Part shown: piece after piece, positions 931-57,078 of the stretch
How positions within the stretch are numbered: the first letter of the stretch is position 1
Layout of the letters: each line of letters starts with the position of its first letter
Source: Owenia fusiformis
Lineage: Eukaryota > Annelida > Polychaeta > Sabellida > Oweniidae
Length of the DNA: 64,000 bases
Direction: 5' to 3'
Assembly (NCBI GenBank): GCA_903813345.2
Contig: CAIIXF020000003.1
Span: 8,809,912 to 8,873,911, forward strand
The notes under the pieces: generated by a model
Databases searched by the model: none
What the model saw: only the letters and a program-made list of their open reading frames with translations
What the model was told of the DNA's origin: nothing
Program-made: the position numbers and the translations under genes

Positions 931-3900
931 CTACATAGCATCAAAGTGAAACCTATGCGAGTCTTGTCTCTTTTCTTTTTTATCATCTCTCTGAAAATAT
1001 AACAAGAATGTTTTTTTTGACTGTTGATAGATGTCATGCAATCCAAACAGAATTTCCACCTGATGCCAAGGGTTTGTGTGGGAAATCAAAGCTCATATGT
1101 AAACCAATTATTATGAAATATGTTTCCCTTACGTCAAAGTCTGATCACTAAGGTAAAACAAATTTGAAAAAACAGTGTCAAATGACACTCTATACTGGCA
1201 AATAAGTCACTACTGATCCGCCATCTTTTTGGAACTGCATATTGATTGAAAAACTTACATTATTGTACAGTACAGAGTGTCATTTGATTCTGTTTTTCAA
1301 ATCTGGGGCATTGTTTGACTCTACAATATATATCACCATATCGATCAAAGAATGTGTCTACTTTGAAATTTAAATAAAGAAATCATATAAAACAAAGATT
1401 TGGTGAAGATTGTCCGACAATGCCCTGTGTTCCAACAATGCCCCCATGTACTCTGTATACCTACCTTTTCTTTCCAGTGTAAAATTGCGACTAGACCAGC
1501 GATAAATCCACATGTCCCCAATAATGCGGCAACAGTCAGTAAAACCAATCTACTGGGAGTTACAAATAGTTTCATTTTCCACCTGTAAAATGTAAAAAAA
1601 TACAGTAAAACCTGTGAAATGGAAAACCTCTGTAAGTGGAACATTTTCATAAGTGGAACACTTTTCATTGGCCCATGACCACTGACTCAATGTAACATGA
1701 ACTGTGTAATTGAATTGTCTAACTTTTAGAGATCTAAAAGGTGTTCCACTTTCACAGGTTTACTATACAAAGTCTGACAATCATAGTTTTATTAGTGACT
1801 CAATTATATCAATCATATTTTCATCTTTGTTTCACCACAATTTCATTCACAAAACTACCTCAACAAAGAAACATATTTTCTGTTTAAAATTATCAACAAC
1901 ATATTGAAACAAAATGGAATTTAATGGCATGTTTTCCCTTTTAAACACTGGTATAATAAATAATTCATGGAACACAAATGGGAGCTCAAAATCATTCCCA
2001 TGGTCTTAACTGATTATTGATTACATGTGCTACACAAGATCAGGCCCTGTTCTAGCTTGAACGAAGCTTCAAAATTATGAGTCAGTATGGTACTCGTTAC
2101 GAGGCCTGTAAAAGGTTGTACATCCTTATACGGGCTCCGATGTTAATTGCCTGTGTAATTCAGAGCATCCTATTGGTGGAGCACATTTCAAAGTAACATG
2201 AACTACCACATATAGTTTTGCCAGATATATGAATATCAAAATCCCGGGATCAAAATAAGCACATGAGAGCAGGACTCTTGCTAAGGATTTGATAGCAGCT
2301 TGATAAAACGACATGACAGGCCATTTACAGCCCTAATCAGCACAGTATGGTACATTAAGAGTATGGTATCACTGGTACCATTTGAGTATGGCGCTGAACA
2401 GTGTTCACGTTAGAGTACTGTTTAAGTCTACGGTACCGTACAGTACCATAGCCAAAGCGGTACTTATACAGTACTGTTTGAAATTGCCTGTGTGCAATAT
2501 TATTTTACTATACTTAATGAAAAAATCTATTTGCCATACCAAAAGTAAAATCAGGCAAAGACCAGTGGATGGGTCCTTAGCTCAAACTTTGCTTGGGAGC
2601 TTTGTATGATCATACTCACCAAGATGGTGTTTCTATTGGGTATGGCACGATGGTAATTTGAGAATTTGGTATCACTGATGTCCAAGATCTTTTCCTAATA
2701 TTCTGAAAAACAAAGCAGCATTTTATGTTGCTTAATAAAATTACGTTAATATGCAAAATGTCACCACCTACCATTTGTTACAGACACTGAACACCAATCA
2801 CCAAATGCAAATCTCCAGAAAAAAGTTGGAGATTGAAACAATATGTCACCACTTCCAGTGATGACAGAATAACTGATCTTAAACTCACTATTATTGACAT
2901 TTTATGCACATAATTCTCATAATAATTTTGTTTTCTCCCAAGCCAACTTGAGGATGTTAAATTGCCACCAAAATTCAGCCAGCAAGAGCCACATTTCTGA
3001 ACATGTGGTACCCTAAATTGATATTTGTCTAAAAATGTCCTACCATATTCTTACAAGGCATTAATATGCAAAATGTCACCACCTGCCATTGGTTACAGAC
3101 ACCAACTTCTGAATGCCGACCACTGATTGCCACATGAATTAATTCAAGATTTGGTAAATAAATCGTGTTCAATTTTGAACACTTAATTTTTAAAGTCTGC
3201 TCTGAAAGAAAAGTCTTACCTTATCTTTAGGTCTTGGTACGCCAACATGAAGATTGTCTATAAAGTTTGGAGTTTGCCCTAATCCAAATACTGTGAAGGG
3301 TAACTGTAGCGCAAAATGGGCGGCTTGTGGCATCTGACCCGCTGAAATAGTTCAATAAAATGGAATTTTAAATGATTCTTTCATTTCATATTGAATCCAG
3401 ATGCTCACTTAATAGTAATTTAGGATATTTTTGATACATGCAGAGTATGAACTTTTACTTTATTGCTGCACAAAAAGACATTGAATTATTTTTAAGAGAG
3501 AATCAGATCTAGTGAACAGGCCAACAAAAAGTTGTTTCAGTTTTAGAATATTTCTGGCCCATGTCAGTCCTTGTCATGTCTATTTTCTAAAAATCCCCAA
3601 AGTACACACTTTATTTCAGGAAAACTAAAGATTTTTACAATAATGTATTATTTTCTATAAGAATGGTTACTAGACCATTCTAATTATTGCGAGAAACTAG
3701 ACATTTTTCACCCATTTTTGAGATTTGAATCCATAATACCTTCACCAATTTATAACATATCATGAATCTTTTGGGAGATATTATATTTGAGATTGTAAAG
3801 AAAAGATTAATAGGTCAATTTTCACCCCTATAGATCTGATTTCGCCTTTAAAGCAGATATGAAATGGTATTTTTAACCTAAAGGAATCAATATAATTTTT

Positions 3901-6900
3901 TGATAGATGTATTTGGACATGTTTTCTCATCAGTAGTGTGAAAACTATTTCACTCTAACGATCGTTATAGCTGCTTAATAAGCAATATTCGAATTGGTTG
4001 TGACGTTATTGGCCCCCACGTGATCTCTCTCTGGTCCCCACGTGGCCCGTTTTGGTCCCATTAGATCATGACGTCATAATGCCAAAATGTTTTGTTATTT
4101 GTTTACACAACAATCCTATGGTTGCCGTGACGTTGTGATTACTATGGAAAAAATAAACCAAAGCTATATTTTGTATATGACGTTACTAATCACGTGGGGG
4201 CCAATTTGATTTATCAGTTAGTTTTATTTCGTTATCTATGACCGTTAGCAGTTATCTAACATTTATTTTATAATGGCTATCGCAAGAACTCTACGGTGGG
4301 CTTACAATGGAGAAAACCGCATTTTTGTAGCTGCAAGTTGAGAAAAGCTATTTCAGTTGTCCTTTAATAATTGAATGATTACATATTTAAAATGGCAACA
4401 GGAGCCCAGCGATTTAAATGTTCTTCAAAAAATCACAGAACTTTGTATTCAGAAACAAGGATATCCAGATTCTGGTCTTGAGGATACACCTCATTATACA
4501 AAATATACTTGTTTACTTGACTTAAAAAGCATAGAGTATCATAAATTACCACAGCTTATTTGTGGTCTGCCTTCAGCTGTTGTAGTCCTGTATTGTATAA
4601 ATGGGCCAGGCTGATTCACCCCATAAGGCTGAAAAACAAAAAAGCATGTCACAATTGAGCATTGTTCCCTTGCGACAGGTCATTGTAAGTGCCATATCCC
4701 ACTTTCTAATCTAAAGACAAAATAAAGCTGGAATAAAAGGGTTAAAATCTAATTCTTGGATGTAAAAGGTCACACCTCGTAGTTGACTTTGAAAATCATG
4801 ATAGGTTTTAGAGAAACATGTATTTCTATACATATGTGCTGTGCTGTGCTGTGCCCATTTGTTATTTTATGCTGTATGTATTTATCTTTTGAGCTTAATA
4901 AATTATAGAAATGTCACGGAACAAAACAAATCGGAACAATTCGGAACATTTTGCTTTCTACCAAATAATATTAAGATAAAAGAAATAATAAACTAAAAAT
5001 ACCATATTTTTTTTAAAATTCATGAAAATGTGTACATGTATCACAATATAAATATATTATATATACAATACTATATATTGTATTTATATATACAAAATAA
5101 GCCAATACAAATACATTTACAATAAACTGAAAATACAATAGCCATCACCATAATAAGGCACCTGATTAAACAAATACAAACATGCTGGACATTAAACAGC
5201 CCCTCAAAATATAAAATTTAAAAACTTATTCTAAAGACCCACTTTTTGTCCTTCCTGAAAATGTACCTTTTAAACACACCTGTTTATCTTATATACTTAA
5301 AAAATTAAGAAAGCGATTAAAAAAGGACTAACACACACATATACATGTACATACAGTTTCCCTCTAACTGAACGTTACTGTGCATATAAGCGCCACCTTT
5401 TGGTTTTCATGCAATTTAAAATACCTTTTCTGATTTTGTCTTTAAAAGTTTATTCCAAAATGGTACTGCGGCACCACTTCCCTGTGTTTGTTAAATCATA
5501 AAATGAAATGAAATAAGATATTTAAACATTTTCTCGATTAATGGTTGAATAACAAGGTTGTTAAAAGAGATACTAAGCTTCTACTGTATAAATGGTTATT
5601 TTGCCTAATCATTTAATTTGCCTAATTGCCTAATTTTTTGACAGGTTTGGAAAATTAAATGTCAGAAACATTATCTTCATAATGTTATCCAATGGTAATT
5701 GTGTCTGGTCATTAGGAAAATCAAAATTAGGAAAATGATAAAATTTGACCATATACTGGACTAACTAAAGAGTGGTTACAAAGACACCATCATATACAAC
5801 TCCATAAGATAGCCACCTCATTATGCACCACTCCAGATTTCCACGAGCATGACATAATTTGAAAACAGACAATCGGCCTCGTGAAGACTCATTGATTTGT
5901 ACTCATTAGAGTGATCAGAGCAATGATTTTTAGGATTAGGCAATTTATGATCTATAATAATACATCCTCCTAAGCAGGTGTACAGAATCCGTACCTCCAT
6001 CTTTCGCCCTGCTATTACCAATTTGGAAGTGCCCAATTAAACTGAATCACATGATCTAATTATGCGCAATGATGTATACATGTACATGAAGAAAGAAGAT
6101 ATTCTGGATTTTGAAGCCCTGTGATCGGACGATGTAATAATATGGTTTATACGTTTGGTACAATATACTGACCATTTTTCCATTGGAACAATCACTCTTA
6201 CTACTATTTTCATCAATATTTTTCAAAAATACTCGTAAATCAAAATGAATGACTGACAGCTGACAGACATACAGGGTGATCAGATTAGAATTTAAGGGAA
6301 CAGACAATTGATTGATCCAATTTGATTGGTATTTGAGACAATTTCTAATGAAAAAGTGCTTACCATTTTGCCATTTGGACAGTCACTATCACATAAGCCA
6401 CTCAAAACTGAAAATCAGAAAAGCACAATTCAGTGAAATAAATAGATTAAAGCTGTCAATGTGAAGGAAATTTAAAACATAAGTCATATAAGCCCAGAAA
6501 AATACAGAGTACAATTTTAAAATAAATACTGTGATGTAAAAATTACTACAACTACATGTAATTTTCTGGTCTATAATGGTGTAAATATACATGTATGTCT
6601 ACTTACATGTTTTGAGGCTTGTTCATCATAATATATTTGTCACAAAGATCTTCTGTGATTTATGGCAAATATATACGTAGACCTTAAGATGTTCTTCCGC
6701 CAATTGACTAAGACCTTATTCCACAAATTTTAACAATGATCAAAAACAATGGTCAGCACTGTCCTATACAAATCTGGTCTTCATCCCATAAATAGTATAT
6801 TAAATGGTATTATAAAGTTCCATACCATATAGAAAATGGGTAGGTGGATGTATTTCAAACCACTTACCCATTATTTTTACAAAGCATGCATCTGCGTTGA

Positions 6901-9900
6901 AGTTGTTTTTGTATGCATGGGTCACAGTGGTTCCCGTAGCATCTACACTGCTAAGCATCACATCTAAGACTCCCTGTGGAAAATTAGATATGTAAATCAT
7001 GAAGTTGTTCTGGTACATATAGATCACAGTGGTACCAGTACTGTAGCATCCACACTACTAGCAATCCAAATATGTATAACATTAATTCCTTAATGGTGGG
7101 GATGGAGGAGGGGGTGTTGAATCGTGGGGATGAGGGTGTTGGTGCTTTTGCTTAGATGAACCTCCCATTTCAGCTAAACTTATTTAAATCTTGATTCAAA
7201 AAGTTTCGCCATGCAAATTAATAAAACTATTATTGTATTCAACCACAAATAAATGCCCAAACACCCGCAATATTAGAGAATTTTAAAGAAAATGGATTCA
7301 CTTAGAATGACTCAAACTGAAGTTGATGATCTTTGTCATCATTACGTCATCATCAACTTCAGTTAGAGTCTTTCTAAGTGAAGCCATTTTCTTTAAAATT
7401 CTCCAATATCGTGGTTGTTTGAGCATTTATTTGTCATTATTTACCATTGTAGCTTTATAAATTTGCACGGGGAAACATTTGAAATCCAGATTCAACTTAG
7501 TTTAGCTGATATCGGAGGTTTATCGAAAACGAAAGAATTTCGGCAACTATCTTGAATGAAGCTAATGCAGTTAGAGTCATCCAGCTGTGGAACAGTGATA
7601 AGGAAACAGTGGCTACCCGGCTACTGCACCTCATCTTGAATATTTAGCAACCATGTTCACCAACCATCAAGAACAATTAGACCATGGATGATTTAGTCCA
7701 TCAGAATTCAGGGCATATTGCATAGCTATAACATTCTAGGTCTAGCTGTACAAAATTAATAGCTTTGGAGTCAAGTTTTGGAGACAAATTTCTCATAAAA
7801 ATGTGCAGTTAAAGCTTCAGTCACATTTGTTCTACTGCAGGCATACGGGAGAAAATAGCTTAAAAAATTGATTTAGAAAATCTACATCATACTACTGAGC
7901 CCTATATTTTATGCTGCATATTTCTCGATTCTTGAAATTCAATGCTGCTGTATGATTGTCATCAAATGTGGCTGAAGCATTAGCCTCATAAAACAGTGTA
8001 CTTACATCCCCATAAACGTCATAGAAGGCTGCGAGAATAACATTGTTTACATTCTGTATTCCAGTTCCCCATAAGATCCCAAATGTACGTCCTACATTTT
8101 GACACAATTTGTTCCCGCATGGGATATTCTGTAGCAAGACTGCATTCTGCCGCCTTTTTCTGTTGAGAAAGTAAAAAGTACATGTTTTTGTTAAAAGTGT
8201 GTGTTTTCTAAAAAGTGCATGTTGTTGTCTTATAAAATTAATAATTTAATATACCATGAAACAAAAACACTTTATTGAACATAATCATGAATAAAAAAAC
8301 AAACTTAACCTAGGTTTTAATTCCCTTGCTCATGTTAACTTTGAAGCCTTTCTTGTGTTAACATTGAAGTCTTGCTTATGTTAACATTGAAGCCTTGCTT
8401 GTGTTAACATAGAAGCCTTGCTCGTGATTTCCTGTCTTATAAGTCTCATTGGTCTAGACTTCATGTTTTCCATTGAAATAATGAATTGATTTGTTATTAA
8501 AATAATCAGAATACTCTATAAATGTAAGAACTCAACTCACCCGTCCTCTTCTGTATAAAGTATTGCCAGAGCATCGGGAAACCCGTCCAAGTTATAGTCC
8601 CCTGTGTGGAGGGCGATTGGTAGAAGAGGCCTAGTCACAGGGTTTGATTTTGGTGGAACAAATCCCCAAGTGCCGCCATTTGTGAAGTTCGCCAGTAAGA
8701 GAGACCACTGAAATTGAGAAATTGAAGTTAAGGTTGAGCAGCCATTGATCTCCACAGTTTTTTTTCTCAAGGTGCAAAATTCTCATTTTCACAATTCATA
8801 CCAAAGTTGGTCTAAATATGCCAATTTTTCATGATTTCTCTCATTTTCAAGTGGGTGCAACCTTATTTTCAAAATCTCATGTGGGTGCTGCACCCACTTG
8901 CATTAATACTGGAGAGATCACTACTGCATAAGGTGTTTGTTTAATCAAAACGACATCACAAAAGGAATATTATCTCAAATGATGAATCAGTTATCTCAAA
9001 TTAAATGTTTTATACACAAAGATGTGTTCGCAAGTGTTCCTACGAGAAATGTTATTACAACATTAAGGAATGATTTTCTTAAAAGGGTGTTGACTACACC
9101 TAAGGATATTTTTGCTTTTGATTTAAAAAATCTGATATCACAGTTGTTGATTTGTTCAAAAGATAAAGGTTTTCCTTTAAGACAATATCAATTGAAATGC
9201 TACAAGTAAAGAAAGTTGCTCAGATATTGTGTTTTTTACAAAACAACTTTTTATTTTTTTTATAAAACATGCTGTTGGTAGCCTGCTTAAAACAAGCCCA
9301 GCTACACATTTAACACATTTAACTGCATTGATATATAAGGCCATAAGAAGTAGATTCTTTGTTTTGCGTCCTGGCAAAATCCAAATCATGCAAGGGTACA
9401 AGGAAAACAAACACAAATTCAGGAAAAAACACAAAATTGTTTGCTGAGATATGTATACATTTTATAGGCATAAAAAGGGATGACATAAAGGTTCATTTCG
9501 TCTGATTCTGATTGAATGAAATGCGATGGCACTTTCAGACCCTTGTGCTTGCTATTTGGATGTGTTTGTTTTTTCTGATTTACTCAAAATTGTGCAAGCA
9601 AGGGGACACAAAGCAAAGAATCTACTTCTTATGGCCTAATAATAAGAAGAATAAATTACTATTTGCCCCACCTACCTTATCATTTGAATAAACATAGATG
9701 GAGCTGTCCATGCAGGCATCATCTAAACATAGCGGGACAATCTGGTCTATTACACCATCTTGATCTACAACGAGATTTAACAAAAATATTCAAAATGGCC
9801 CTACAATTTATCATGCCCAAATGCGTATCAGATTTTAGCTCTTCGGTGTGCTCATGCACCTGTAAAAATTTGAAAAAGTTGAACGGATAAGTGGTTTTCC

Positions 9901-16962: not shown

Positions 16963-17297
16963 CTTTTTCCTGGTGGGCGATAATAGGTAATTTGAAAAGT
17001 CGTGCCGTAAATCAGTCGTGCTTTTATATCTTTTTCGTAGAAATTTCTTTCCACTTTTAAAGTAGCTTTTCATCAAATTACAGCTGAGATTTTGCTCAAG
17101 TTTTACCCCTACAAGGATAAGAGACTTTGGTGAACATGCAAAACCGAATACCAGACGAAATGCATCCATAGTTGATCTAAAAAACGTGTTTGAATCGTTA
17201 AAAAACAAAAATGAAAAAAATAACGACATCTCATTCTCAAGGAAATAATTCCAAGTCAAAGGTCAAGACAACCAGATATGATAGTCGACTGGGAAGA
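16963..17297. promoter_or_regulatory. Shared divergent promoter region of ITFG1 and PHKB
   Basis: Only 335 bp separate the ATG of ITFG1 (minus, 16962) from the ATG of PHKB (plus, 17298), so both 5' UTRs and core promoters must lie here or in unseen 5' non-coding exons. No TATA box in a convincing place was seen on either strand. The region is less AT-rich than the surrounding introns. Start sites cannot be fixed from sequence alone. Confidence 0.6.
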
Positions 17298-44200: not shown

Positions 44201-47200
44201 CGGGTGGAGGATTTTGTGACGATATTCTCCGGAAAACCCAATATGTGGAGGATATTGTGACGATATACTCAGCTTGTTGATTTCCCGCCAAATTGACTCT
44301 ATTTGGAATGAAATTCATTTTACAATGATATTATACATTCAGTACACTCCTTGTAAGTGTATGATAATAAGAACATCCTATAACAGGTTCCAGTGAAGTT
44401 TGACATTCTTCCAGTTTGACAAAAGTATTAAACAAAACTGTTTTATGGGTGTTTTTACTCATGACATATTTATTCATTGCATCTTCTTAAATATATTCAG
44501 GTACAAATGTTTCAGAGGGAAGCAAGTTGTCTGAATTCAGACAGAAACATTCCTTAGCTAAACATATAGTGTATCTTATACTTGAATATTATGTGTCTGA
44601 ATTCAGACACCGGCTTTCTAATCATTAAGAAACCTAGATTTTCCCTGTCTGAATTCAGACACAACTTGATAATAGTAAGATGAATTTGTTTATCTTTAGT
44701 GTCTGAATTCAGACACAGACTTTTCCATATTAGAAAACATATGCTGATTCCAACTGTCTGAATTCAGACACAATTTGATAATGGTGAAGGTGAATTTGTT
44801 TAACTTATGTGTTGTGTCTGAATTCAGACATTGGAAATCAGTATCAATTTTCTCAGATTGAAGTCTTGTCTGAATTCAGACACATAAACAAATTCATCTC
44901 ACTATAATGGGATTTTGTCTGAATTCAGACATAAGCTTTTCCATGTTAAAAAACTGATTCAACCGTCTGAATTCAGACATGGACTGATCATAGTGAGGTA
45001 AACACTTATTAAGTTATGCAATGTTGCTTATGGCCACATTATCCATACTTTTTTGACAGAAATGGACATAATATACTCTAATTCACATCATAGTAATTAG
45101 AAAATAACAAATTATTTTTCTATATGCTTCTCAGTGACAGAATTCATGGTTTAATCTACTGTACATCATTACAAAATGTATATGTTCAACCTTAGGTTCA
45201 TCAAATTATATGTCTAACTTCTTCAATAATATACAGGGTGTCAAATAAGTCCCGTCCCCCCTGCTACAGCTAAAACCTTAACAGACGGTACCTAGTGTGA
45301 TATACCATTGGAGGATCATCCAAAGTTATGTTAACTCACCAACTCTCAAGTATTTTGGATGAAATTTACCTATATTTTTATGATGTCTTTTATAGTTAAC
45401 GTGCCCTCCTTTAAGTAGCTTTTTTGCGTCAAAATGACAAGGATATGACCTCAGAAATACGTCAAAAAGTTAATTTTTTCGCATTCCACTTGTTACAAAA
45501 AGGTTTTCACCACTTTCCTTGTACCTCTATTTTTTACACATCTAACCCTATCCAGAAATTGGTCAAATTTATCGCCATAAACATATTTAGTCATATTTTG
45601 GTCCCTTGACCTTTCTTATACCCGATTCTTAAAATCCTGCCAAATACGCCGAATTGCCACGTTTCTAGGCATATGGTCACCTCAATTGATACAATGTAAA
45701 GATTTGTGGGATTGATTGACATGTGTCATATATATGCCAAACAACGTAACTTTGGAAGACCTTTCCAATGATATATCACACTTGGTACCAAATATCTTGG
45801 TTTTAGCTGTAGAGGGGGGGGGACGGGACTTATTTGACACCCTGTATTTCAGCACATATTTCTGAGTACACTCAGTACATACAAAAAATTCACACTTTGT
45901 GAACTTAAGGGAAAGATTTACAAATTCGAATTCATTTGAATTTTCATTTATTTGATCCTTTTAACTCAGAGATGTTAAAGTACATTCTGCATCACATGAT
46001 TGAAACTGATTTAAAATTGATGATCTATTTACAATCAACATCTGCTGTTAAGTATTATGATACTAGTAAATATATAGAAAATATAAAAGGTATAATATAC
46101 AATGTACAATCCAAGGGAAAAGTGAACCATGTCATTTTCACTTCATTTGATAGATATTTGACAATTTCTAGCTGTCAAAATACGAGATTATAGAATTTAT
46201 CTGTGTCTCGAATTGTGATGGAAGGGTGGCAATGTATTCTTAATTTTGTTGTAAGTTGATCTTATTTCTGATTTGTTGTGGGATTCTTCCCTGTCAACAG
46301 TTATGGTACAGTAGATGCCATTGGATATAAAGTTTGATATCCTGTTAAAAGTAAATTTTAATGTCCAATTTCCACAACCATACCAAATTTCACTGCTTCA
46401 CCAGGACTCATTCTATATCCTACTATGTATTCCACCTCAAATCTTCTGTCTTATTTGGATGGCTCTCCGGTTCCCCCTGATTTAATGGGCATTTGCCAGT
46501 TACAACCTGAAATAGTATAGATTATACAGTTTTATCTATGTTACCATGAAGACTCAAATTGACTGATGGACAGACACAAGCAGACAGACACTCCTAATGA
46601 TAAAGAAAAATAACATAACCGGGAAAATAACACCCATGAAATTTCATATGGAGTGTAATGGAATATAATAATTTGAGTGGAATATACCTTTTTGACCATT
46701 ATTGTGTTTTGATTCAATGTAATGCTCATACCTTTTCTGCAGACCTCGACTTTGTTCGCTCTATAATACTGTTCAGATTAATCGCTTTCTTTTTTGGCTC
46801 ATGTGTACGTCCTTCTGATATAGCCATGAGAGTTTGACAGGATTTTCTGAAATATTAATTATCAGTCTATCAATATCAAGTAAGAATAAGTGAATTAATT
46901 GAGTAGAATTTAAAACAAACACTTATTTTTAAAACTAAATTTATATTGGCCATGTTTCAAATGTTGGTACCTTAGTCGCCATCTCATTACTATTTACCAA
47001 GTAAGTTTTGCATTGTGTTTTCTACCACAAGCACATGCATCTAGGAGTGTATTGTAATGTTATTTGTAAATAAGATTTTATCTGTACATGTAAGCATATA
47101 AGCTTAATTGGGAGCCAATCCTCCTTGGCTGTCACTCTAGCATTTAAATGAAGAGATGTATATTATTTAGGGTCTGTGTAATAAACAGATGACTGGGTAA

Positions 47201-50200
47201 CCGGTGACTCAGGGTGCCTAATGTGTCTAGCAAGGTTACCCACTTTCAAAGCTGGACATTTTCCCCTAATATAGGCCTAGTAGCAAACTGACATGATAAC
47301 TCCAGCCTCCTAAGTGTAAACTATACTGTTCGATATTCAAACATTATCTTTTCATCAAAAACCTACAAGAGACTGAGCACTTTTTGAATAAAAATGTTTT
47401 AATAATATCAGAATACCTGGTTATACACAATATCAACTGAATAAATGAACACGAAATTGACTGAATTAGGAAATCCCGGGGAGTTAACATTTTACACTCA
47501 TGTCCAATATCTAATTATATAAAGATTCATACTTTAAAAAAACCATTCTGATACTCATGGCATCTTTCTGTTTCACCTGAAACATGCTCTGATATTATGA
47601 GGCATATTCTGTGATCTGAGCACATCAGATGGGAAGAGTTATAACTGTCAATAAGTGTCATAGTTATCATGAAATCATGAAATTATCATGAAATTACCTA
47701 ATGTCAATACAGAACATAATAGGCATTGTATTTAACAGCAGATATTAGCACAGACACATGTTCATAAGTTTAAAGACCCCAATCAAATGAAATATGAGAT
47801 GGGATGAAAGATCTCAAAAATCCTCAATTCTTGGCTCTCCTGGATCGCCAAATCAAGGTATTATATCATGGCATCTCAGGGCTGAGAAGATTTGAGATGT
47901 CATGGTTTATCATGACGGTGAAAACCCAAAGTGAACTTAATTATAATAGATCAAGTAAACAAATCTGGAAGATGTGCGCACGCTTATAAATGTTAATTGA
48001 CATTTTTAGCTGTCAATTAATGTGTGACTTGATTTATTGCCTGAGTGATTGACATGATATTGGTGATTGTTTGTTTTGCTGGTTGGTTGGTTTACTGGTA
48101 TAGATGAGATGTTGGTTGCTTGGACTGTTAATTTGCTCATTTAAAGGCATAAAATCAAATCCTAGCCCTGCTAAGAATGTTACCCAGTCACCTGGCAACC
48201 TGGTTATCCAGTCACCCCGATTTTACACAAAACCTTTAATTTACCTCTCTTCTAAATTATTTTTACATCCTACTCTGGACTTAAAATTATGATAAAGTGA
48301 CTTACCAAATTCACAATTCCCTGTTGATGTATCTGCCATGCTGTAAATTAGCATGTTCCAGTAATCCAGTGTTTATCTGTTGAATTCAGATCTCTTTCTT
48401 CAAAATGTTCATAATTTCTAATATTGTCTGTTAAACCTGTTTCCGCCAAAAATTTGAATGGGTGTAACTCAAATCCCTTCTTTCATTGGATAGTGTAACG
48501 TTTGGGTGAGTCTAATATTTTAAAAAGGGTACACAGTGATTCAATGGACTGATCTGAAAGCCCATTCCCTAAGTGCTACTAACTATATATGTATGCAATA
48601 TACACCACAAAAGTAACATGAACATCTTCAAACATATTAATTTTCATTGGACAATTGATTATACAGTATACAAAAGGAAAATAATAAAAGCGTGACAGTT
48701 GGTGCTAGGTGTTGGTGCTAATCCTAGGTGCTGGAAATTTGAAGAAATTTGATGATAGCAGTGGTAAGTTATTTTTATTAAGATAGTTTTAAATACTTTT
48801 TCAAAAATTACATTTAATTTAAGAAAATCCAAACTTATCTTAAATATAAAAAAAGAGATATTGAAGATTAGAAATAATGCGGATTAATGTGAGCTTCCCT
48901 CCTTAAACCAACTAGAACTTTTAAACCAATGAATCACAGCCCCTTCGATGAATGATATTAGTTTATTTAAAACTTATGAATTTGAAAATTTTAGATGAAT
49001 AAATCACTGGCCCTTTGGAGGGAAATAATAGTGCAATGATGGTGGTCTTTCCTAACATGGACTCAACCACCAATGATAGGGTAGAATTACTGTTGCTCCC
49101 AAATGTTGATTATATAAAGCTATTTATAATTTACATTGTTTTTTGTAGGAACAAAGCCCTACATACAAACATAAAATATATTGATTGTGAAGAAGAGTCT
49201 GCTACCAACATATTGATATAGGTGAGTAATTAATTCTAACATATTTTGTTTGCCTTGTTTTCTTTAAAACAATTTTCCTGGAATTTTGAAACAATATTCA
49301 ACATTTTCCTTTTCTTCCTGGGCCCACATAGTTTGTATTAAAGGATAGTACCTTGTGAAATTGACTTCTAATTTTTTATTCACTAAGTTCTAGTTCATTG
49401 TTTCATCTGTACTTTGTTGCATTAGCGCCATATGATGTAGATACTTTGTTTTAACTCCTGCTTTAAAGACCTAATAACACAATGGCATAAGGAAAACAAA
49501 CATTAATACTAACTTGTTTGCTATTACTATTTAATTGATATAATTAATTCAACCTTAATGATTATTAACAAATCAATTATATTTGAATTTCAATCTCAGT
49601 GAGGTCATTTCCAAAAATATTAAAGCAGGTAGATTTTATGATTAAGTAAATGGGTCTTCACATGCAGTATTACTCTGAACAAATTTGTCAATAAATTCAG
49701 AGTTAACCCTCACAAAAAGATAAAAACAGATTATTAAATAAAGGAAAAGGAAAGCATCAGAAATTAACGAAACAGAATAATTACTTAAAATATAAACCTA
49801 AAAGTTAATTCATCACTTTTGTTTATTTTTAATGAATATTTGTTGAACATCTTTTAAGGGCAAATTCTGTGAAATTGAGATGCATAACCACAAATTGCAC
49901 AAGCATTCATACTCATCCATTTCTATAGCATAACATCTTTACATAAAAGCTAGGCTTTTCAATAGGTTGAAATCACTCAGTTGTGAACCATATAGTAAAA
50001 TCAACTTCTAGATTGAGTTTCCTGATTTAAGTTTGGAGAAATCCGATGAAGTTGAATTTGGTTATATTGCTTCAAAAATTTCAAAACTCATACCATTTTG
50101 TTCATAAAAATGTGAGCAATACAAAGAGAATGGCAGTGTTTGGAAATAAATATATCACAAACCTTTTTTTAAATAAATGGTTACATCATTTCTCATTAAA

Positions 50201-53200
50201 ATTCTCCCAGATTCCTATTCTGAAGTCCAATAAACATGACAGTTACCACTTAAATGGATCAAACTTTCCAATAACTGATTTTGACATTATCTATTATAAT
50301 GAGTTGATCTAATGTTATAGAATGGACTGAGTTGGTACTGTCTCCTAAAATAAATAAAATACCACCCTTTATTACCAAGTGATAGACCACCCTTAAGTAG
50401 TTTCTCCAAAATGGGAATATTAACTGTATAAAAACTGATTTGATTGTGAATTTATTTTTAATAAAATGTGTCAAATACAGAAGCCAGGCTAGTTTAACCT
50501 TGTTAGAATAAAGCATGTTTCAAATGCAATTCAGGGCCAAGCTTGATCACTAAACATTAAAATGAATAAGAAATGAATAGGCTAATATGACTGAAGGTAT
50601 ACACTGGTGTATGTGCCCTCTCCCAAGTAAAATAAACATAAGCATTGTGTAATGTTGTGATAAGGGGAGAGAGGGTTATATCATACTAAGTAAGCTTTAG
50701 AGAACTGATTGATCTATTTCATTGCATGAAAACCAGTGTTTCCTAAGTGACATTTTTGTGGTTTTGAGAAAATGGGTTTAAAGTTGAAACATGAACCATT
50801 TATATTACAAAGCTGATTTTATACTATCTCATATTATTGTGAGGTTTATGTATATGATTTCAAAACTATTATAAAGGAAATTGTGGCAGAAGATTTTTCA
50901 GCTTTCAAACTGATCTTGCAGTTTGAAAAATAAAAGTCATCATTGAATTCCTTTCCAAGTTTATAATGTTGAAGTTTTCAATCAACTGTTTTAATTATAA
51001 TTAATGATTTAATTAATGCCATATATCACAGCCATTGTTTTTTAGTACATTGTTTTTGTCATTATACCATTATACTGTAGTAAAACATTATTGCAAAATT
51101 AGCATATACTGATTAGTTGTTGAACGGGTTGACTCAGAATTTTAATGCATAGTAGGCCTGTTTGTAAGTTGTATGTGATGGAACCTTTGTATACATTTTT
51201 TACAACCTACATGCATCGTTTATTCCAAAAATACACTTATGTTATACATTAATTAAACAATGCAAATAATATACCCATTGCATGGAATAGATTATTTTCT
51301 TTTGTATAACAAAACATTTGAGTTAAAAAATAATTTGTGAAGTTTTCTAAATGTTTTTATGAAAAATCGCATTCTCCCCTAAGCTGGACAAATCTTTGAC
51401 CACCTGTGACTTTCCAACCATATTTCATAACGACCAGCCTGATAGGCAATGTAAAATTACTTTAAATATCAAGTAGTTACATGTATTTCCTAAAATGACA
51501 GGGTTGCAGCTTTTTTGACCACCCTGTACAGCAAAGCTGGTCCGACATGAAATAAAAAGTCTGTGTGGAGGTGTATATTACTTAAATAATAATATGGTTT
51601 TCTTTTGTTTAATTCCAGGTGATGTTTGAGACCAAAAAAACTGGCAAAACGGTTTATGTTGACTATTTCAAAAGCAACAACATGTATGCATGTCAATACA
51701 ATGATTGCCATTGTGCAAGTTCATTAGTTGCACAATATAACACTGAAAAAGCAAGCAAGATCAAAGATCATTAATTGAGCCATTAGAGCCAAGTACAACA
51801 AAAAAGACACCAATCTCGAAAAAGAAGCTTTAAGATGAAGTTGGGGAAGATGACATCTCACTATATAGGAATGTACATTGTCACTGTTAAGTCAAAGCCA
51901 GTGATATGGTGAGATCAACTGATGTGCCAAATGACAAAGCCACTGTAAACTCCTTGAAGATGAATTTGAAAAAATGTGAAGATGTACCAGCACTGACTGT
52001 AAATGTCAATATATAGACTTGATTAATATGACCCTAATTTACCTCAGAATTTTTTAGAAATCATTAAATCAGAACTTGGGCAAGTATAATGATGAAGCTA
52101 ATAGATTATAATGTATTATGAAAGAACTAGACTATTACTCATATTTACACGCCTTACCATTGACAACGTGCAGTGACAAAATATACCGTTGTACACTTTA
52201 TATTGTACAGTGTCACTAGAAACTGATTTGAAGTAAAACCGGTGATGCAGGTGTGATGTAGGTTTTCAAAAATTAATATTGGGAATACATGCACTTGAAG
52301 AAAAATATTTCATGTTTAATTGCGACATTCAGCTTTCGGATCATGTTAAAAGATTTAAAACCACTGCTTGATTTTTTCGTAGTTAATCTACCCACAATGG
52401 AAAATGTTGGGTTTTTCACATTTCCTTTGATCATTCCCCTGTCGCAAAAGACTGTAAATTATTTTTATGAGAATATGTTTCTCTAAACTACACAATTTAA
52501 GATAAGAGAAGATTTGATAAATATTATGTATTTGGTGTAATTTTAAAAAATCAGAAGAGTAGTTGTCAACTCCACTGTAGGGTGTCAGTGTAAATGAAAT
52601 TCACAAGATGTAATGCAATAATTCAATTGCAAAATCGAGGTTTTAATGAGTAACAAGTTATGTTCAGCGAACATGTTCAATTATCCCTAATACAGATGTT
52701 CTAAAGTTAAGGTAAATTTAATTTTTAAATTTTGTTGAATGTTATTTCATTTTATAAAAGTGGTGATTAATCTGTGACCATGGGGTGTTGGTCTCTAGCC
52801 TCTTGATCATTTGGCATCTGAACTTTAACGTAATAAGAAACACTTTTATGTTGAAGATGACTTTTTAAAATCCTCTTTATGCTATATCTAGAAGTGTGGA
52901 GGTTCAATACTATAGTTCAATCATGTTTACTGTGATTGTTAAGTTTCAGTTTTAAATGAATCTGATCCCCCTGCCCGTAAGTGTTATTAAAAATATGTTG
53001 TCAGGGTTAACTGTGAATTTAGATATGAAAGTTCATTTGGACAACATACATCAAGATGACAACGTACATTTGTATTTTTTGATTTTTATTATTTTAGCTA
53101 AAACATGAATATTTATTAAATCTTCAACTGACCTTAATTGTGTAACTTAGGGAAACATATTCTCATAATAATAATTGACACTCTGAGGTGACAGGGAGAA

Positions 53201-56200
53201 AAATGATCAAAGTAAATGTAAAAAACCCAACATTTTCCAACTGATCATTGTTTATGGGAAGATTTGCTATGACAAAAAATCGAGCTGCTCAAAAATCTTT
53301 TAACGTAATCAGAAAGTTAATGGTCTTCCCAATCGAATACACACGAAATCAAACATGAAATTCTTTATGCATTCGATCCTCAGATTAATTTTTAAAACCT
53401 ACATCACACCTACATCTTAGTTTTTGCTTCATATCAGTTAGAATAGTGACACTGTCCATTGAAAGTGTACGGCTGTAAATTTTCTCACTGTACATTGTCA
53501 ATGGTCAGGTGTGATTTAAAATTAAAAAAGTTAAAATGATAAATCTTCTGCCGGTTGTACCATCAATTACAGTATTTTCTAATGAAGTATTTTATGTAAT
53601 GCTAAAGATTACTTGATCTGTATGTGACGAACTACTTTTTGAAAATATCTTGTCATAAAATTTACAATTGTACTTAAATAGAATTGCAATTAAAACATTA
53701 TATAGACATCTTGATTGCAATCAGATGAAAATTTCTGTTGACAAACTTATGGATGGAAGAGAAATTGCTTCAACACAGGATTGTTGACCTAATGAATTTG
53801 AATTCAAACATCAATTTCGATTAAAAAACAAAAGTGAAAACAATAATTTCTGAATCCTTACCTGTAATGTCACTAGAATATCTGAATTCAGGCACCTTAT
53901 TTCAGTTTTATAGAATGTTGTTTGAATTCAGGCACCTTATCCAAGCTTACCAAAGTGTCTGAATTCAGACACCTTATTTCAGTTTTATAGAATGTTGTCT
54001 GAATTCAGGCACCTTATCCAAGCTTAGCAAAGTGTCTGAATTCAGACACCTTATTTCAGTTTTATGGAATGATGTCTGAATTCAGGCACCTCATTCAAGC
54101 TTAGTAAAGTGTCTGAATTCAGACACCTTATTTCTGTTTTATAGAATGTTGTCTGAATTCAGGCACCTTATCCAAGCTTAGCAAAGTGTCTGAATTCAGA
54201 CATCTTATTTCAGTTTTATAGGACGTTGTCTGAATTCAGGCACCTCATCCAAGCTTAGCAAAGTGTCTGAATTCAGACACCTTATTTTAGTTTAAGAGAA
54301 TCTTGTCTGAATTCATGCACCGGAATCTCAGATATAATTCTTTTTTCTAATTAAAAATATGTGGGCATGTCTGAATTCAGACACATATTTTCCTATATTA
54401 AGAGCTACATCAAGTAAAACATCTGCCTGAATTCAGACACTTCATATATCTACACAAAAAGCTTGTAAATATGTTGCTGATGTCTGTACACAACATAGAT
54501 ATACGGTACCTAGAAATATATATCTTCATATTTATACTTTGGTCGTTGTTTATAATCTTTTCTCATACAAAAATCTTCTCCAACACTTCAAGAATACATT
54601 AATTGTCAAATATATTTCTTAATTTATATTAATAATTCAAACATTTGTCACCTATGGAATTGCCAAAGTACACTGGAACCTGTTCTATGATTTTTTTCAG
54701 AATATTTTAATCTTCTCGGTGATATTGATATTCGCTTCGCTCTCTCCTGCAGATATCAATATCACCTCGTAGATAAAAATGATATTCCTCAAAATCATAG
54801 GATATCCTATAAATATCCTTTGAATTTCAAGGGATATCATTTTTATCCACAAGTAGATATAAACCATCTCCTCGAGTGGGCTGATCAATGAGAGAGTGGA
54901 ATTGGGCAAAATCCATGAGTGGATGAAAATGATAGTCTATTTGGATATCATTTTAATCCAACAGTTTTCAAAATATTTCTATATTACATATTTTAAGAAT
55001 ACCCCACATAAAACTTCACAATAAACTCAATTTTAAAAACTTAATACATTCTAAATAGCAAAGAATTACTCAGACTGAACAATTTGATTAAAGTGGTTGC
55101 ATACACACATTTCAATCTTTTTAATAAGCTCATAATGGTTGGAACTCCATTCTGACGGTAATATAATCAGGTATTTGACATACATATAGGCGATAAATTC
55201 AAAACTAATGAACTACAGTAGTATCTAATTTCTATGCGGTTAAGATTTGTGATTTCCAAATTAAATTCTAACCAATGTGTCATTACATGTACAGTATGTG
55301 TTTTATAGGTCCCCGATCTGGAGGAGGCAGCTTGATGGGGCCCTGAATAGGGTTCCCCCAGGCTTCTATGATAAAGTGTGGGAGATACTCGAGCGGACAC
55401 CGGGTGGTCTAAAAGTTGCGGGATATCATCTCCCACAGGTACTTCTTCGTGTGAAGATCTAAGTCAATCCTGCGTGCGTATTGTCGGTCGGCATTACGCA
55501 TGAAAAAATTAGGGAATGGGGTTCTGTCTCTGTCTGCATTTTGGATCATAGTTTGAGATAAGGGTGCTGCCGTAAAATATTTTGAGAGAAGTTGAACGTA
55601 AAAGTGTATTATTATGACCCTAGGGGATTTCTGTCTATTCCTTTATTTGTTTTTCCTGCCACCAAAGTGCGATTGGTTTCCTTGCACCTTTTTCAGTTTT
55701 TGAATTTCCAAAAAGGAATGCTGTTGTCATCTTGAGCTAATTGGCGTCTTGCTTTAATCTTGCCCTATTGTACAGAGCTACTAGAATTCCGTTTTTTCCT
55801 GCATCGCAGCAGAAAAATGCAGAATTTTAATTTGGTTAAATGCAGAATATTGAATTTCTGTTGATGGAGAATTTTTACAGAATTCCACATGTTGGCTTGC
55901 AGAATTTTGCATTTTGTAATTTTGATTTTTTCTTGCAGAATTTTGCATTTTGTAATTTTAATTTTTTCTTCCAGAAATTTGCATTTTGTGATTTTAGTAG
56001 CTTTTTGAATTTCTATTTTGCCTTTCAGCAACCCACCCTCTCAGATATGACGATGTACGAACTTAACTTTTCACTGTAAATGTGTTTTTGCCTTTCAGCA
56101 ACCAACCCTCTCAGATATGACGATGTACGAACTTAACTTTTCACTGTAAATGTGTTTTTGCCTTTCAGCAACCAACCCTCTCAGATATGACGATGTACGA

Positions 56201-57078
56201 ACTTAACTTTTCACTGTAAATGTGTTTTTGCCTTTCAGCAACCAACCCTCTCAGATATGACGATGTATGAACTTAACTTTTCACTGTTGGTCGAACAAAT
56301 GCTGAGCAAAATCATCGAACCCGCCTACAGACAACTCATGGTTGAGGCGTTCATGGTCGTGTCAACCATCTTGGAACGCAATCCGGAGCTGGAATTCCAA
56401 CGACCTGTCAATATGGATGTTGTAAGTTTGGTTCTTATAGGTAGACGAGCAGAATGTGCTACAATTTGATTCTTATTACAGTATGTTGAATATATTTCTA
56501 TATATTTATAATTATTTAAAAAGAATACAATTTACAAGTTACAACATAAGTTGTTTTCGTTTCAAAACATATCCAGAGCGCTTCATCCCCGGGGATTCAT
56601 CAAGAATTTCAAATAATCATTAAATCATTACATTAATCATTGTATTTTGCAAAATTGCATTTGTCACTTTGGTATTTATTAGCTGCAAATGCAATTCATT
56701 TTAAGAATTCTCTCCAAAATTACCCAAATTACATGTAGAAGGTTTTCCCATGGTTTTCCTTATATTGGAAAATGATGAAAATATGGATTTATAATGCATT
56801 ATTATATTTACCCATTACATTCCAGTATTTCTATATGGCTACAATTTCATATTTTTCAGTTGATTAAAGAAGCTTTCCAGTATTTTAAAAATGACAGCCA
56901 ACCAACTGTTGAAGAAAAAGAAAAGCAAGACAAACAGGAAAACAATATGGCGTCATTTTTCAACACGCCATCTGTCGGACGTTTGGGAACAACAAGTTAT
57001 ATTGCAAAAGCTGTTGTAAACCATCTCCTCCAGGGAGATGTAAGGCATACATATGGAGAATCGTGTTCCATTTCTTGA
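17298..57078 (+). CDS. PHKB: Phosphorylase b kinase regulatory subunit beta, complete 23-exon gene
   Basis: Exons: 17298-17367, 18108-18249, 18996-19095, 22028-22135, 22735-22794, 23550-23686, 26944-27103, 27616-27813, 28113-28170, 28752-28829, 29378-29533, 31439-31536, 39290-39520, 39967-40071, 40323-40496, 41158-41340, 41706-41890, 42507-42597, 43337-43539, 43908-44048, 55309-55438, 56239-56421, 56860-57078. All junctions are AG/GT and in phase; 3210 nt = 1069 aa plus stop (human about 1093). It is a scaffold/regulatory subunit of the glycogen-mobilising (alpha beta gamma delta)4 phosphorylase kinase. Beta-specific blocks are present: [76 protein letters not shown]. The N-terminal half is the glucoamylase-like (GH15-type) domain. 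The C-terminus is CSIS, a CaaX box like vertebrate CLIS, consistent with the known farnesylation of the subunit. Introns 6, 11 and 21 carry exon-edge tandem arrays. Intron 20 is about 11 kb. Confidence 0.96.
18585..18750. repeat. Dispersed repeat R3, second copy
   Basis: AAAGTGGAACACCTCCATGG, GGTGGAACACTTC and GAGTTCCACTTACTGCAGG follow the order seen at 1600-1765 and 33587-33745. PHKB intron 2. Confidence 0.6.
19973..20020 (+). CDS. Candidate 48-nt cassette exon of PHKB
   Basis: An open 16-codon block ([16 protein letters not shown]) is preceded by TTTCCAATTTAG and followed by GTATCC. It is phase 0 at both ends and lies inside the phase-0 intron 3 (19095/22028), so inclusion would add 16 residues in frame after QQSEK. 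I do not recognise the peptide in vertebrate PHKB, and a chance AG...GT pair in a 2.9-kb intron is possible. Confidence 0.3.
20383..20570. mobile_element. 188-bp TIR element with 9-bp target duplication (GCTATTATG)
   Basis: CAAGGAGGATTGG at the left end and CCAATCCTCCTTG at the right end are exact inverse complements, with looser pairing inward (ACCGATATTCTGC / AAAGAATATCGAG). GCTATTATG flanks at 20374-20382 and 20571-20579. A 9-bp duplication suits Mutator-type insertion. Related end sequence recurs at about 47113-47130. No coding capacity. PHKB intron 3. Confidence 0.8.
22235..22420 (+). repeat. Dispersed repeat R4, first copy
   Basis: CTTTGGCAATGGCCAGAATA, ATATTTGACATAGATCATGA and ATATGATAAACAGACAAGAA match 63710-63825 in order. 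Non-coding; PHKB intron 4. Confidence 0.7.
22810..23145. repeat. Poly-G tract and degenerate tandem repeat of ATGGGACCCACATCTAGGG units
   Basis: A run of G near 22812-22830 is followed by about seven diverged units of about 35-42 bp, each with a variant of GACCCACTT/ATCTAGGGATTTTT. Fills much of PHKB intron 5 upstream of exon 6. Confidence 0.7.
23618..26573 (+). repeat. 114-bp tandem array made from PHKB exon 6 tail plus donor, 26 copies
   Basis: The last 69 nt of exon 6 (from 23618, residues 183-205) plus 45 nt of intron start are repeated head to tail. Unit starts run 23618, 23732 and so on to 26466; the 2848-bp span equals 25 periods of 114 bp minus one 2-bp deletion near 23945. Each unit reads ...ACTAACC(N)nCATATAG, GACCCCTGACTTTGGAATG..., CATGCAAG, GTAAATACAG. 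The exon-like 69 nt is open in nearly every copy; one stop was seen (TAA at 26401-26403). Near-identity means recent growth or strong homogenisation. Because 114 is divisible by 3, the antisense strand carries a long but meaningless open frame. Confidence 0.95.
28505..28715. repeat. Diverged TGAACACCTG repeat (R3-like)
   Basis: Units of AGTGAACACCTGTCTCT repeat four times, followed by ACTCTACTAAAG and CTCTGTAGTGAACACCTA. A shorter relative is at 22480-22560. Upstream of PHKB exon 10. Confidence 0.55.
28915..29115 (+). repeat. Dispersed repeat R2, third copy
   Basis: TTTTTTCTCAAGTGGGTGCA, ATATGCCAATTTTTCATGAT and GCACCCACTTGCTTTAATA match the other two copies in order. PHKB intron 10. Confidence 0.7.
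29452..31075 (+). repeat. About 101-bp tandem array made from PHKB exon 11 tail plus donor, 16 copies
   Basis: The end of exon 11 (GAGGGTGGCAAGCATGG to CAACTTCTAG) plus the intron start GTATGTAAAATACTATCATA is repeated in tandem. GC(A/T)AGCAT anchors lie at 29461, 29562, 29663, 29764, 29869, 29974, 30081, 30184, 30285, 30387, 30488, 30590, 30691, 30792, 30893 and 30993. Spacing is 100-107 bp, varying mostly by TA steps in TATATATA. Every copy keeps an AG|GTATG-like donor except one with GCATG (about 30865). The period is not a multiple of 3, so units could not be read through in frame. Confidence 0.95.
31886..32678. repeat. 35-bp minisatellite, about 22 copies
   Basis: CAGAGTCCCATTGCTGCACC plus ATCCAACCCTTAGTA recurs every 35 bp with few changes. 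Repeats without stops create open frames on both strands that have no independent support. PHKB intron 12. Confidence 0.92.
32690..34885. other. Non-coding part of PHKB intron 12
   Basis: AT-rich. Apart from an R3 repeat copy at 33587-33745 and a short ACTTATTCAAAATT(G/T)C tandem at about 34170-34265, nothing recognisable was seen. Confidence 0.45.
33587..33745. repeat. Dispersed repeat R3, third copy
   Basis: Begins ACAGTAAAACTTGGACAG and ends CCAGGTTTAACTGTAC, enclosing AGTGGAACACC and GAGTTCCACTTCTC as in the other copies. Confidence 0.65.
34890..36135. repeat. (CCGT)n-headed dispersed repeat with four internal near-copies
   Basis: A CCGTCCGTCTGTCTG tract at about 34926-34975 is followed by a block, TCTGTCGATAGGATTCCTGT ... 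TTTCAAAATGGCCGCCATTT, that recurs at about 34998, 35145, 35490 and (diverged) 35850. Non-coding; resembles other (CCGT)n-associated repeats such as 61536-62244. Confidence 0.7.
37473..38764. mobile_element. 1.3-kb TIR element, CACGGTG ends, 5-bp target duplication (TTTTA)
   Basis: Left end CACGGTGTATAACCCAAACG and right end (inverse) CACGGTGTTTAACCCAAACG continue as matching GCTCCTACATGCACGAC. TTTTA flanks both ends (37468-37472, 38765-38769). The motif AAACGCTCCG recurs inside in both orientations (about 37540, 37927, 37958, 38691, 38720), like subterminal transposase sites. No transposase frame was found, so it is non-autonomous. Ends starting CAC with a heptamer-like CACGGTG and a 5-bp duplication are features of Transib/RAG-type elements; this assignment is inference. 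PHKB intron 12. Confidence 0.8.
38847..39003. repeat. 31-bp tandem repeat, 5 copies
   Basis: AGATATGAGGCTCTTTTAAT plus TTGCCTCATTT repeats five times almost without change. ATGAGGC and GCCTCAT within the unit are inverted, so each unit can form a hairpin. Ends about 290 bp before PHKB exon 13. Confidence 0.9.
40111..40140 (+). repeat. Decayed copy of PHKB exon 14 end plus donor
   Basis: CCTTGTCATAGATGATGTCA AGCTAATA here matches the exon 14 end CTTGTCATTGATGATGTCAAG plus GTAATA at 40051-40077. The donor GT has become CT. A further trace, AGATGTCAAG, lies at about 40091. Confidence 0.7.
40667..40832. mobile_element. Possible small CAGGGTGA...CACCCT element
   Basis: CAGGGTGA at the left and TCACCCT at the right are flanked by TA-rich sequence (TATATA/ATATA). 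Inverted similarity does not extend much further, so this is a weak MITE call. Confidence 0.35.
42150..42500 (+). repeat. 66-bp tandem repeat containing a copy of the PHKB exon 18 start
   Basis: ATGCCATCCCATATTGATCT starts at about 42160, 42226, 42292, 42390 and 42456. The longer fourth interval holds TTTTTAG plus a degraded exon 18 start (42342-42385, [14 protein letters not shown] versus real [14 protein letters not shown]). The real exon 18 follows at 42507. The acceptor and first 14 codons were therefore duplicated upstream with the repeat. Confidence 0.85.
44530..44980. repeat. Nine copies of palindrome TGTCTGAATTCAGACA with variable spacers
   Basis: The core TCTGAATTCAGA begins at about 44530, 44596, 44649, 44702, 44757, 44817, 44869, 44918 and 44966, spaced 48-66 bp. 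The palindrome is conserved while most spacers differ, apart from recurring AACTTGATAATAGTGA/CTTTTCCAT pieces. A second cluster is at 53881-54440. PHKB intron 20. Confidence 0.9.
45234..45844. mobile_element. 611-bp TA-flanked MITE
   Basis: Ends CAGGGTGTCAAATAAGTCCC and its inverse complement (GGGACTTATTTGACACCCTG) continue into CAGCTAAAACC/GGTTTTAGCTG and ATATACCATTGGA/TCCAATGATATATC. TA flanks both sides, as for Tc1/mariner. No transposase. PHKB intron 20. Confidence 0.85.
46200..51250. other. Non-coding part of PHKB intron 20
   Basis: AT-rich. I see no exon with protein-family support. A (T)n-AG...AG|GTGAGT segment at 49150-49220 looks exon-like but contains stops in all three frames. A Mutator-like end fragment lies at about 47113-47130. 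Confidence 0.45.
51258..51412. repeat. Diverged relative of the 11679-12514 foldback element, right arm
   Basis: CATTGCATGGAATAGATTAT, AACAAAACATTTGAGTTAAA, TTTTTATGAAAAATCGCAT and GGACAAATCTTTGACC follow the order of 12376-12505. Only one arm is visible. Confidence 0.65.
51617..52016 (+). pseudogene. Possible decayed coding fragment with a CxxxxCxC motif
   Basis: After TTTAATTCCAG an open stretch of about 51 codons reads [17 protein letters not shown] then [18 protein letters not shown], ending TAA at about 51773. Further downstream, in other frames, coding-like text such as [20 protein letters not shown] appears, broken by stops. I do not recognise a family. It adjoins the large inverted repeat at 52150-53520 and could be a transposon remnant. 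It could equally be chance. Confidence 0.25.
52150..53520. repeat. Large foldback inverted repeat, about 1.4 kb
   Basis: Left-arm blocks (ACCATTGACAACGTGCAGTG, GGTGTGATGTAGGTTTT, CCAACATTTTCC complement near 52395, AGAATATGTTTCTCTAAA near 52470) reappear inverted in order on the right (GGAAACATATTCTCA about 53150, CCCAACATTTTCCAACTGAT about 53226, AAAACCTACATCACACCTAC about 53394, ACATTGTCAATGG about 53493). Arms are about 80% alike by eye. No reading frame is conserved. Confidence 0.75.
53881..54440. repeat. About 14 copies of TCTGAATTCAG(A/G)CA in a 38/39-bp ladder
   Basis: Copies alternate TCTGAATTCAGACACCTTAT TTCAG... and TCTGAATTCAGGCACCTTAT CCAAGC..., making a dimer of about 75 bp, then three looser copies at 54306, 54370 and 54426. 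Same palindrome core as 44530-44980. Confidence 0.9.
55838..55995. repeat. Tandem TTGCAGAATTTTGCATTTTG units
   Basis: About four to five units of 35-40 bp with TGCAGAATTTTGCATTTTGT AATTTT. Non-coding; PHKB intron 21, just before the exon 22 acceptor array. Confidence 0.75.
56021..56285 (+). repeat. 70-bp tandem array of the PHKB exon 22 acceptor plus exon start, 4 copies
   Basis: TTGCCTTTCAG followed by the first 48 nt of exon 22 ([16 protein letters not shown]) starts at 56029, 56099, 56169 and 56239. The first three copies run into TAA directly after L; only the fourth continues as the true exon. All four have an equally good polypyrimidine tract and AG. Copies are almost identical (ACCCACCC versus ACCAACCC in the first). 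Confidence 0.95.

Follow-up and report, generated by a model that had tools for sequence, protein, structure and literature searches.

Minisatellites that span exon-intron junctions were found in several genes of the annelid Owenia fusiformis; in the genes sampled, the junction itself was no hot spot for them, yet the long arrays were biased toward donors. With slightly better than even confidence, we ascribe these repeats to minisatellites of the "mirage" type, which would be born at random, be tolerated by virtue of an intact outer copy and grow mainly behind donors.

The window, i.e., the whole stretch of 64,000 nt that was analyzed (contig C3, positions 8809912-8873911), belongs to a 498-Mb assembly of 525 contigs. 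The erythrocruorin-linker domain PF16915, which is typical of annelids, was matched at three places in this assembly; the GFP family gave no match, a weak negative because the control did not register either, and COX1 gave none. Twelve contigs are of chromosome size, with lengths seen from 62.2 Mb down to 36.7 Mb (C12), and C13 measures 0.66 Mb; a published account gives the genome as 505.8 Mb with 12 chromosome-scale scaffolds (PMC9977687). Gene models were obtained by splice-aware alignment of the DNA to human protein guides, and the two neighboring genes modeled in the window have 74 splice junctions together:

17253..57078, plus strand: PHKB gene, 23 coding exons in the model, N-terminal end left out, no internal stop
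934..16890, minus strand: ITFG1 gene, 16 coding exons in the model, N-terminal end left out, no internal stop

The spliced PHKB product matched human PHKB chain 8jfk_B with 1260 bits over query residues 27-1084. The ITFG1 model is based on the protein guide, and its acceptors of exons 5 and 9 are weak.

Repeats at the junctions of PHKB and ITFG1

A junction was counted as spanned under an 8-bp rule, with the blastn rule supplying the main figures. Strong direct duplications crossed 6/74 junctions in the window, namely those at PHKB exons 2, 6, 11 (both ends), 18, and 22:

18240..18468, plus strand: single duplication at the donor of PHKB exon 2; offset 181, ~10 exonic bp, copy still with GT
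23611..26570, plus strand: array at the donor of PHKB exon 6 (exon 23550-23686); 114-bp unit x 26.0, 76 bp of the unit exonic
29199..29401, plus strand: old single duplication at the acceptor of PHKB exon 11; offset -153, AG gone from the copy
29453..31071, plus strand: array at the donor of PHKB exon 11 (exon 29378-29533); 101-bp unit x 15.9, 81 bp exonic
42222..42546, plus strand: duplication at the acceptor of PHKB exon 18; 164-bp unit x 2.0
56016..56287, plus strand: array at the acceptor of PHKB exon 22; 70-bp unit x 3.9, 49 bp exonic, AG in 3/3 spare copies

Four more cases in the window were weak or marginal:

40048..40141, plus strand: old single duplication at the donor of PHKB exon 14; offset 63, copy with CT where the donor GT was
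12902..13100, minus strand: array adjoining the acceptor of ITFG1 exon 4; 26 bp x 7.3, 8 exonic bp matched, marginal
6898..7060, minus strand: ITFG1 exon 10; 56 exonic bp that recur as a decayed copy ~107 bp upstream, with the acceptor between the two
6168..6387, minus strand: old single duplication (weak) at the donor of ITFG1 exon 11; offset 191, score 33, copy still with GT

The donor alignments at PHKB exon 14 and ITFG1 exon 11 extend just 5-7 bp into the intron, so that both miss the 8-bp rule; the former reached a local score of 47, compared with a null maximum of 28. The copy at ITFG1 exon 10 scored 42 (maximum of 27 in 500 shuffles), but local alignment gave no copy of either junction of that exon, the acceptor's own copy being unrecognizable. 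The preliminary description of this DNA had listed eight junction cases (PHKB exons 6, 11, 14, 18, and 22; ITFG1 exons 4, 10, and 11) with units of 30-114 bp. A real duplication was found behind each of the eight, but it was strong and junction-spanning in only four (PHKB exons 6, 11, 18, and 22); with exon numbers taken as matching, the duplications at the donor of PHKB exon 2 and at the acceptor of PHKB exon 11 were missing from the list, and the units or offsets actually run from 26 to 191 bp.

Two other repeats were seen in the window. In ITFG1 intron 4, an inverted repeat carries an identical peptide string on opposite strands (window positions ~11679-11750 and 12443-12514). At 59130-59671, a 78-bp x 6.9 tandem repeat encodes a 26-residue unit over and over and lies in an ORF of 499 codons (58320-59819, minus strand) for a putative sulfotransferase, as judged by eye.

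Junction rates and long arrays in sampled genes

The comparison sample consisted of 20 further genes from this genome, with 472 junctions, which were picked because their proteins are conserved and without regard to repeats. It comprised nine chaperonin genes (sample 2), CLTC, VCP, two EEF2, PYG, ATP1A, and HSP90 (sample 3), then AP2B1, and last GRP94, a SERCA-like gene, and EFTUD2. Many gene models start with incomplete first exons. Partial models were obtained for the SERCA-like gene (2 stops) and GRP94 (1 stop), and 24 junctions of each stay in the count; exon 18 of the AP2B1 model sits within an array and was left out of the final count along with both of its junctions. As the null, each array was collapsed to one unit and the frequency with which a random unit catches a junction was determined.

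The preliminary description had held that junctions are hit more often than chance allows. This was borne out in the window, which was selected for the repeat feature itself: 6/74 junctions were spanned vs. 2.5 expected (P 0.04), and 4/22 arrays lay on junctions vs. 1.5 expected. It was not borne out in the 20 other genes, where 11/472 junctions were spanned vs. 14.3 expected; the proposed check on the junction-overlap rate, run on these 20 genes and not genome-wide, therefore gave a rate no higher than random. At least one case was present in 7/20 genes; arrays whose unit spans a junction were seen in CCT1, CCT2, CCT3, CCT4, CLTC, AP2B1, and the SERCA-like gene. The window and the 20 genes differed in rate (Fisher P 0.018). 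A general excess at junctions is thus not supported in the sample, and PHKB with its window is a rich spot. Counted by arrays, 11/75 outside the window lay on junctions vs. 7.6 expected (P 0.11), with 1/17 vs. 1.1 in sample 3 alone and 1/6 in the last three genes.

Raw coverage was also tried as a test, and by a 40-mer rule 8/74 junctions in the window were duplicated vs. 17% of all positions. Because long arrays inflate coverage, this test was dropped and the collapsed-gene null was used. Under that null, the 40-mer rule, which covered the window and the chaperonin genes, gave 8/74 vs. 2.2 and 10/170 vs. 6.8, respectively; the blastn rule, by which the later genes were scored, gave 7/170 vs. 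6.6 in the chaperonin genes. The PHKB exon 23 acceptor, PYG exon 16 acceptor, and CCT8 exon 8 donor come from the local-alignment test alone and stand outside the main rate.

A narrower form of the junction claim stands: arrays of at least 10 copies concentrate on junctions and, in the sample, always on donors. Outside the window, 5/9 such arrays were on junctions vs. 0.59 expected (P 6e-5), and 7/12 vs. 0.85 with the window included; for arrays of fewer than 10 copies outside the window, the count was 6/66 vs. 7.0. The 10-copy cut was first noticed in the window and the chaperonin genes and was then fixed before the remaining genes were fetched. Among the genes taken afterward, 2/5 long arrays were on junctions vs. 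0.31 expected (P 0.03); sample 3 contributed 0/1, the last three genes were without any, and both junction arrays are in AP2B1, where one of the two was already visible in a search listing before the gene was fetched. The seven long junction arrays, all at donors, are those of PHKB exons 6 and 11, CCT2 exons 2, 5, and 11, and AP2B1 exons 5 and 16. They come from just these three genes, the three of sample 2 all being in CCT2.

Donor and acceptor sides are both affected, as had been proposed, with 11 donor and 4 acceptor arrays in the window and the 20 genes. Copy number ranged from 1.9 to 49.2 in the former vs. 1.9 to 4.2 in the latter (Mann-Whitney P 0.04), a post hoc contrast in a small sample with 4 acceptor arrays. 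The three genes fetched after the contrast was written down yielded a single junction array, at a donor and of 1.9 copies. The array at ITFG1 exon 4 (acceptor edge, 7.3 copies, outside the 8-bp rule) counts against the contrast.

Further repeats and exon duplications were met in the sampled genes. The AP2B1 introns (L031-L033) contain very long arrays of short units, one with 128.5 copies of a 33-bp unit and a 48-bp family whose longest member reaches 50.6 copies, and CCT3 intron 5 (L004) contains two arrays of ~350-bp period in opposite orientation that are 88% alike over 938 bp. The Na/K-ATPase alpha gene (C10:26077305-26083731) has six tandem versions of one exon (~residues 129-170), all different, which resemble a mutually exclusive set. 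Two adjoining versions of an exon occur in VCP/p97 (C1:2677966-2678557, ~residues 399-453), possibly mutually exclusive, and in glycogen phosphorylase (C8:17291165-17291826, ~residues 365-413).

Anatomy and turnover of the copies

In the 14 arrays compared with gene models, the copy that runs on into the remainder of the exon was the outer one, i.e., the first at donors and the last at acceptors. Spare donors kept GT in 25/25 copies at PHKB exon 6 and 12/15 at PHKB exon 11, in 11/15, 19/19, and 46/48 at CCT2 exons 2, 5, and 11, in 8/8 at CLTC exon 18, in 1/1 at CCT1 exon 8, in 22/22 and 11/11 in the AP2B1 arrays, and in 0/2 at CCT3 exon 9. Spare acceptors in the four acceptor arrays kept AG in 3/3, 1/1, 3/3, and 1/1 copies. 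Among the old single copies, the sites are dead at the donor of PHKB exon 14 and at the acceptor of PHKB exon 11, and GT is kept at PHKB exon 2 and ITFG1 exon 11.

Splicing from the next donor would bring a stop into the reading frame in 11/11 donor arrays, no more than 16 codons past the first donor and, in PHKB exon 6, immediately past it. In the acceptor arrays, the extension contains a stop in 2/4; CCT4 exon 10 is frame-shifted without a stop there, and in CCT2 exon 9 (L009:5646-6045; 96 bp x 4.2) the spares are open and in frame. The latter would add 32 residues apiece and are a candidate for protein length variation. From the gene models and their open frames, we infer that the outer site alone is used. 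This anatomy agrees with the earlier suggestion that repeat birth may be tolerated since a duplicated junction keeps an intact splice path.

Alleles of the coding copy reappear in inner spares at PHKB exon 11 and at CCT2 exons 5 and 11, a pattern that unequal exchange would give, or that may be retained old variation. One allele of the coding copy at PHKB exon 6 is absent from all 25 spares. When seven arrays were aligned with gaps, 31/60 exonic variants in the spares were synonymous (p 5e-6) vs. an expectation of ~24% (22-27% per array) that gives transitions double the probability of each transversion, although the spares would see hardly any translation. In two arrays analyzed afterward, 1/6 variants were synonymous, and stops accounted for 6/66 alleles in the nine arrays. 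A possible, though not established, reading of the synonymous excess is that the coding copy re-seeds the spares. A lower variability of the exonic than of the intronic part of the spares (p 0.018 in ungapped alignment) was rejected as an alignment effect because it disappeared when gaps were allowed (p 0.11, 0.21, 0.17).

Origin and significance of the junction arrays

Under the reading that we favor, short tandem duplications would arise at roughly random positions in genes, and some would straddle a splice junction at the rate seen in the sample. Junction repeats would persist because the copy joined to the rest of the exon, the first at a donor and the last at an acceptor, stays intact and is presumably the one spliced. 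Behind a donor, the spares would amount to extra intron, as the unit starts inside the exon and does not include the acceptor of that exon, and splicing from the next donor would lead to a stop. Donor arrays could then grow to tens of copies, probably by unequal exchange. The upstream acceptor is read first in splicing, and spares placed before an acceptor would supply AGs that the spliceosome meets first, which may be why such arrays are short or decaying.

The preliminary description had also raised the possibility that junctions are actively struck, with splicing-coupled breaks, R-loops, or replication slippage seeding the duplications. The count in the window (6/74 vs. 2.5) and the clustering of long arrays on donors would fit this proposal. 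Seeding is disfavored, however, because it should show in births and not in long arrays alone, and outside the window neither the arrays of fewer than 10 copies (6/66 vs. 7.0) nor the junctions themselves (11/472 vs. 14.3) depart upward from random placement. Breakage or slippage seeded at junctions is thus unsupported by the 20-gene rate, and we consider it improbable. A larger share of our doubt goes to pure chance, under which minisatellites fall at random in a repeat-rich genome and the pattern of the long arrays is a small-sample effect in three genes. The totals of 11/75 arrays vs. 7.6 outside the window (P 0.11) and 1/17 vs. 1.1 in sample 3 are in line with chance, as is the fact that PHKB, CCT2, and AP2B1 are the sole sources of long junction arrays; the long arrays themselves (5/9 vs. 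0.59 outside the window, and 2/5 vs. 0.31 after the cut was fixed) argue against it, and on balance we think it rather unlikely.

The 31/60 synonymous variants in seven arrays, vs. ~24% expected, might be taken to mean that the spares are functional, either as selected alternative exon ends or as splicing decoys. Re-seeding from the coding copy would yield an equal synonymous bias, though, and the later arrays (1/6 synonymous), the stops among the alleles (6/66), and the stop reached from the next donor in 11/11 arrays all speak against function, to which we give very little credence. Misassembly that invented or inflated the arrays is hardly credible, even with a single assembly as the basis: the copies of one array are not identical, blocks of copies share variants, old copies are single and diverged, and six chromosome-size contigs (C1, C3, C8, C10, C11, and C12) carry junction arrays.

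A bolder view can be put forward tentatively, which we judge less likely than not. Donor junctions may be one-way nurseries for intronic DNA, in which the spares of a caught donor are hidden and expand freely while the acceptor side is kept short by the sequence in which acceptors are read. In this annelid, exon ends would then rank among the main origins of long minisatellites and drive intron growth, with coding sequence re-seeded into the arrays by exchange.

Mirages were named in amphioxus, where they were described in the Adh3, globin, troponin C, and PGBD5 genes and where regular splicing was reported from Adh3 data and globin RT-PCR (PMC3087553; PMC3902484). There, the unit is ~10 to 160 bp and includes an exon-intron boundary, be it the 5' or the 3' one; many, not all, spares keep AG/GT, and the authentic exon end is intact at the edge of the array. 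The same was found here, in that the unit spans the boundary of a coding gene, both exon ends are involved, and many but not all spares keep the dinucleotide. On their sequence anatomy, the annelid arrays can be filed as mirages in another phylum. They differ from the amphioxus cases as described there in their host, in reaching up to 49 copies, in having a rate set against a null, and in the donor-acceptor contrast; moreover, splicing and length instability were reported in amphioxus, whereas the annelid arrays are known from the DNA of one assembly.

A tandem duplication crossing an intron-exon boundary has also been described as the route of intron gain in potato RdRp (PMC4974935); there a new intron was made, whereas the gene models here show no sign of one and an existing intron is lengthened. 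Ordinary intronic minisatellites resemble the junction arrays in array structure, copy number, and homogenization, and several neighbor them in the same genes, but the unit of a junction array carries coding sequence and a splice site. Among the matches listed from the open-access literature (titles and starts of abstracts), none described junction-spanning arrays in annelids or a donor bias.

Mirages, which among the matches listed were found reported only in amphioxus, are now seen in a distant phylum, and they may be common wherever introns hold many minisatellites. If the donor bias is true genome-wide, it would bear on intron growth and on the unequal tolerance of duplicated donors and acceptors, as well as on how exon ends may turn into new introns.
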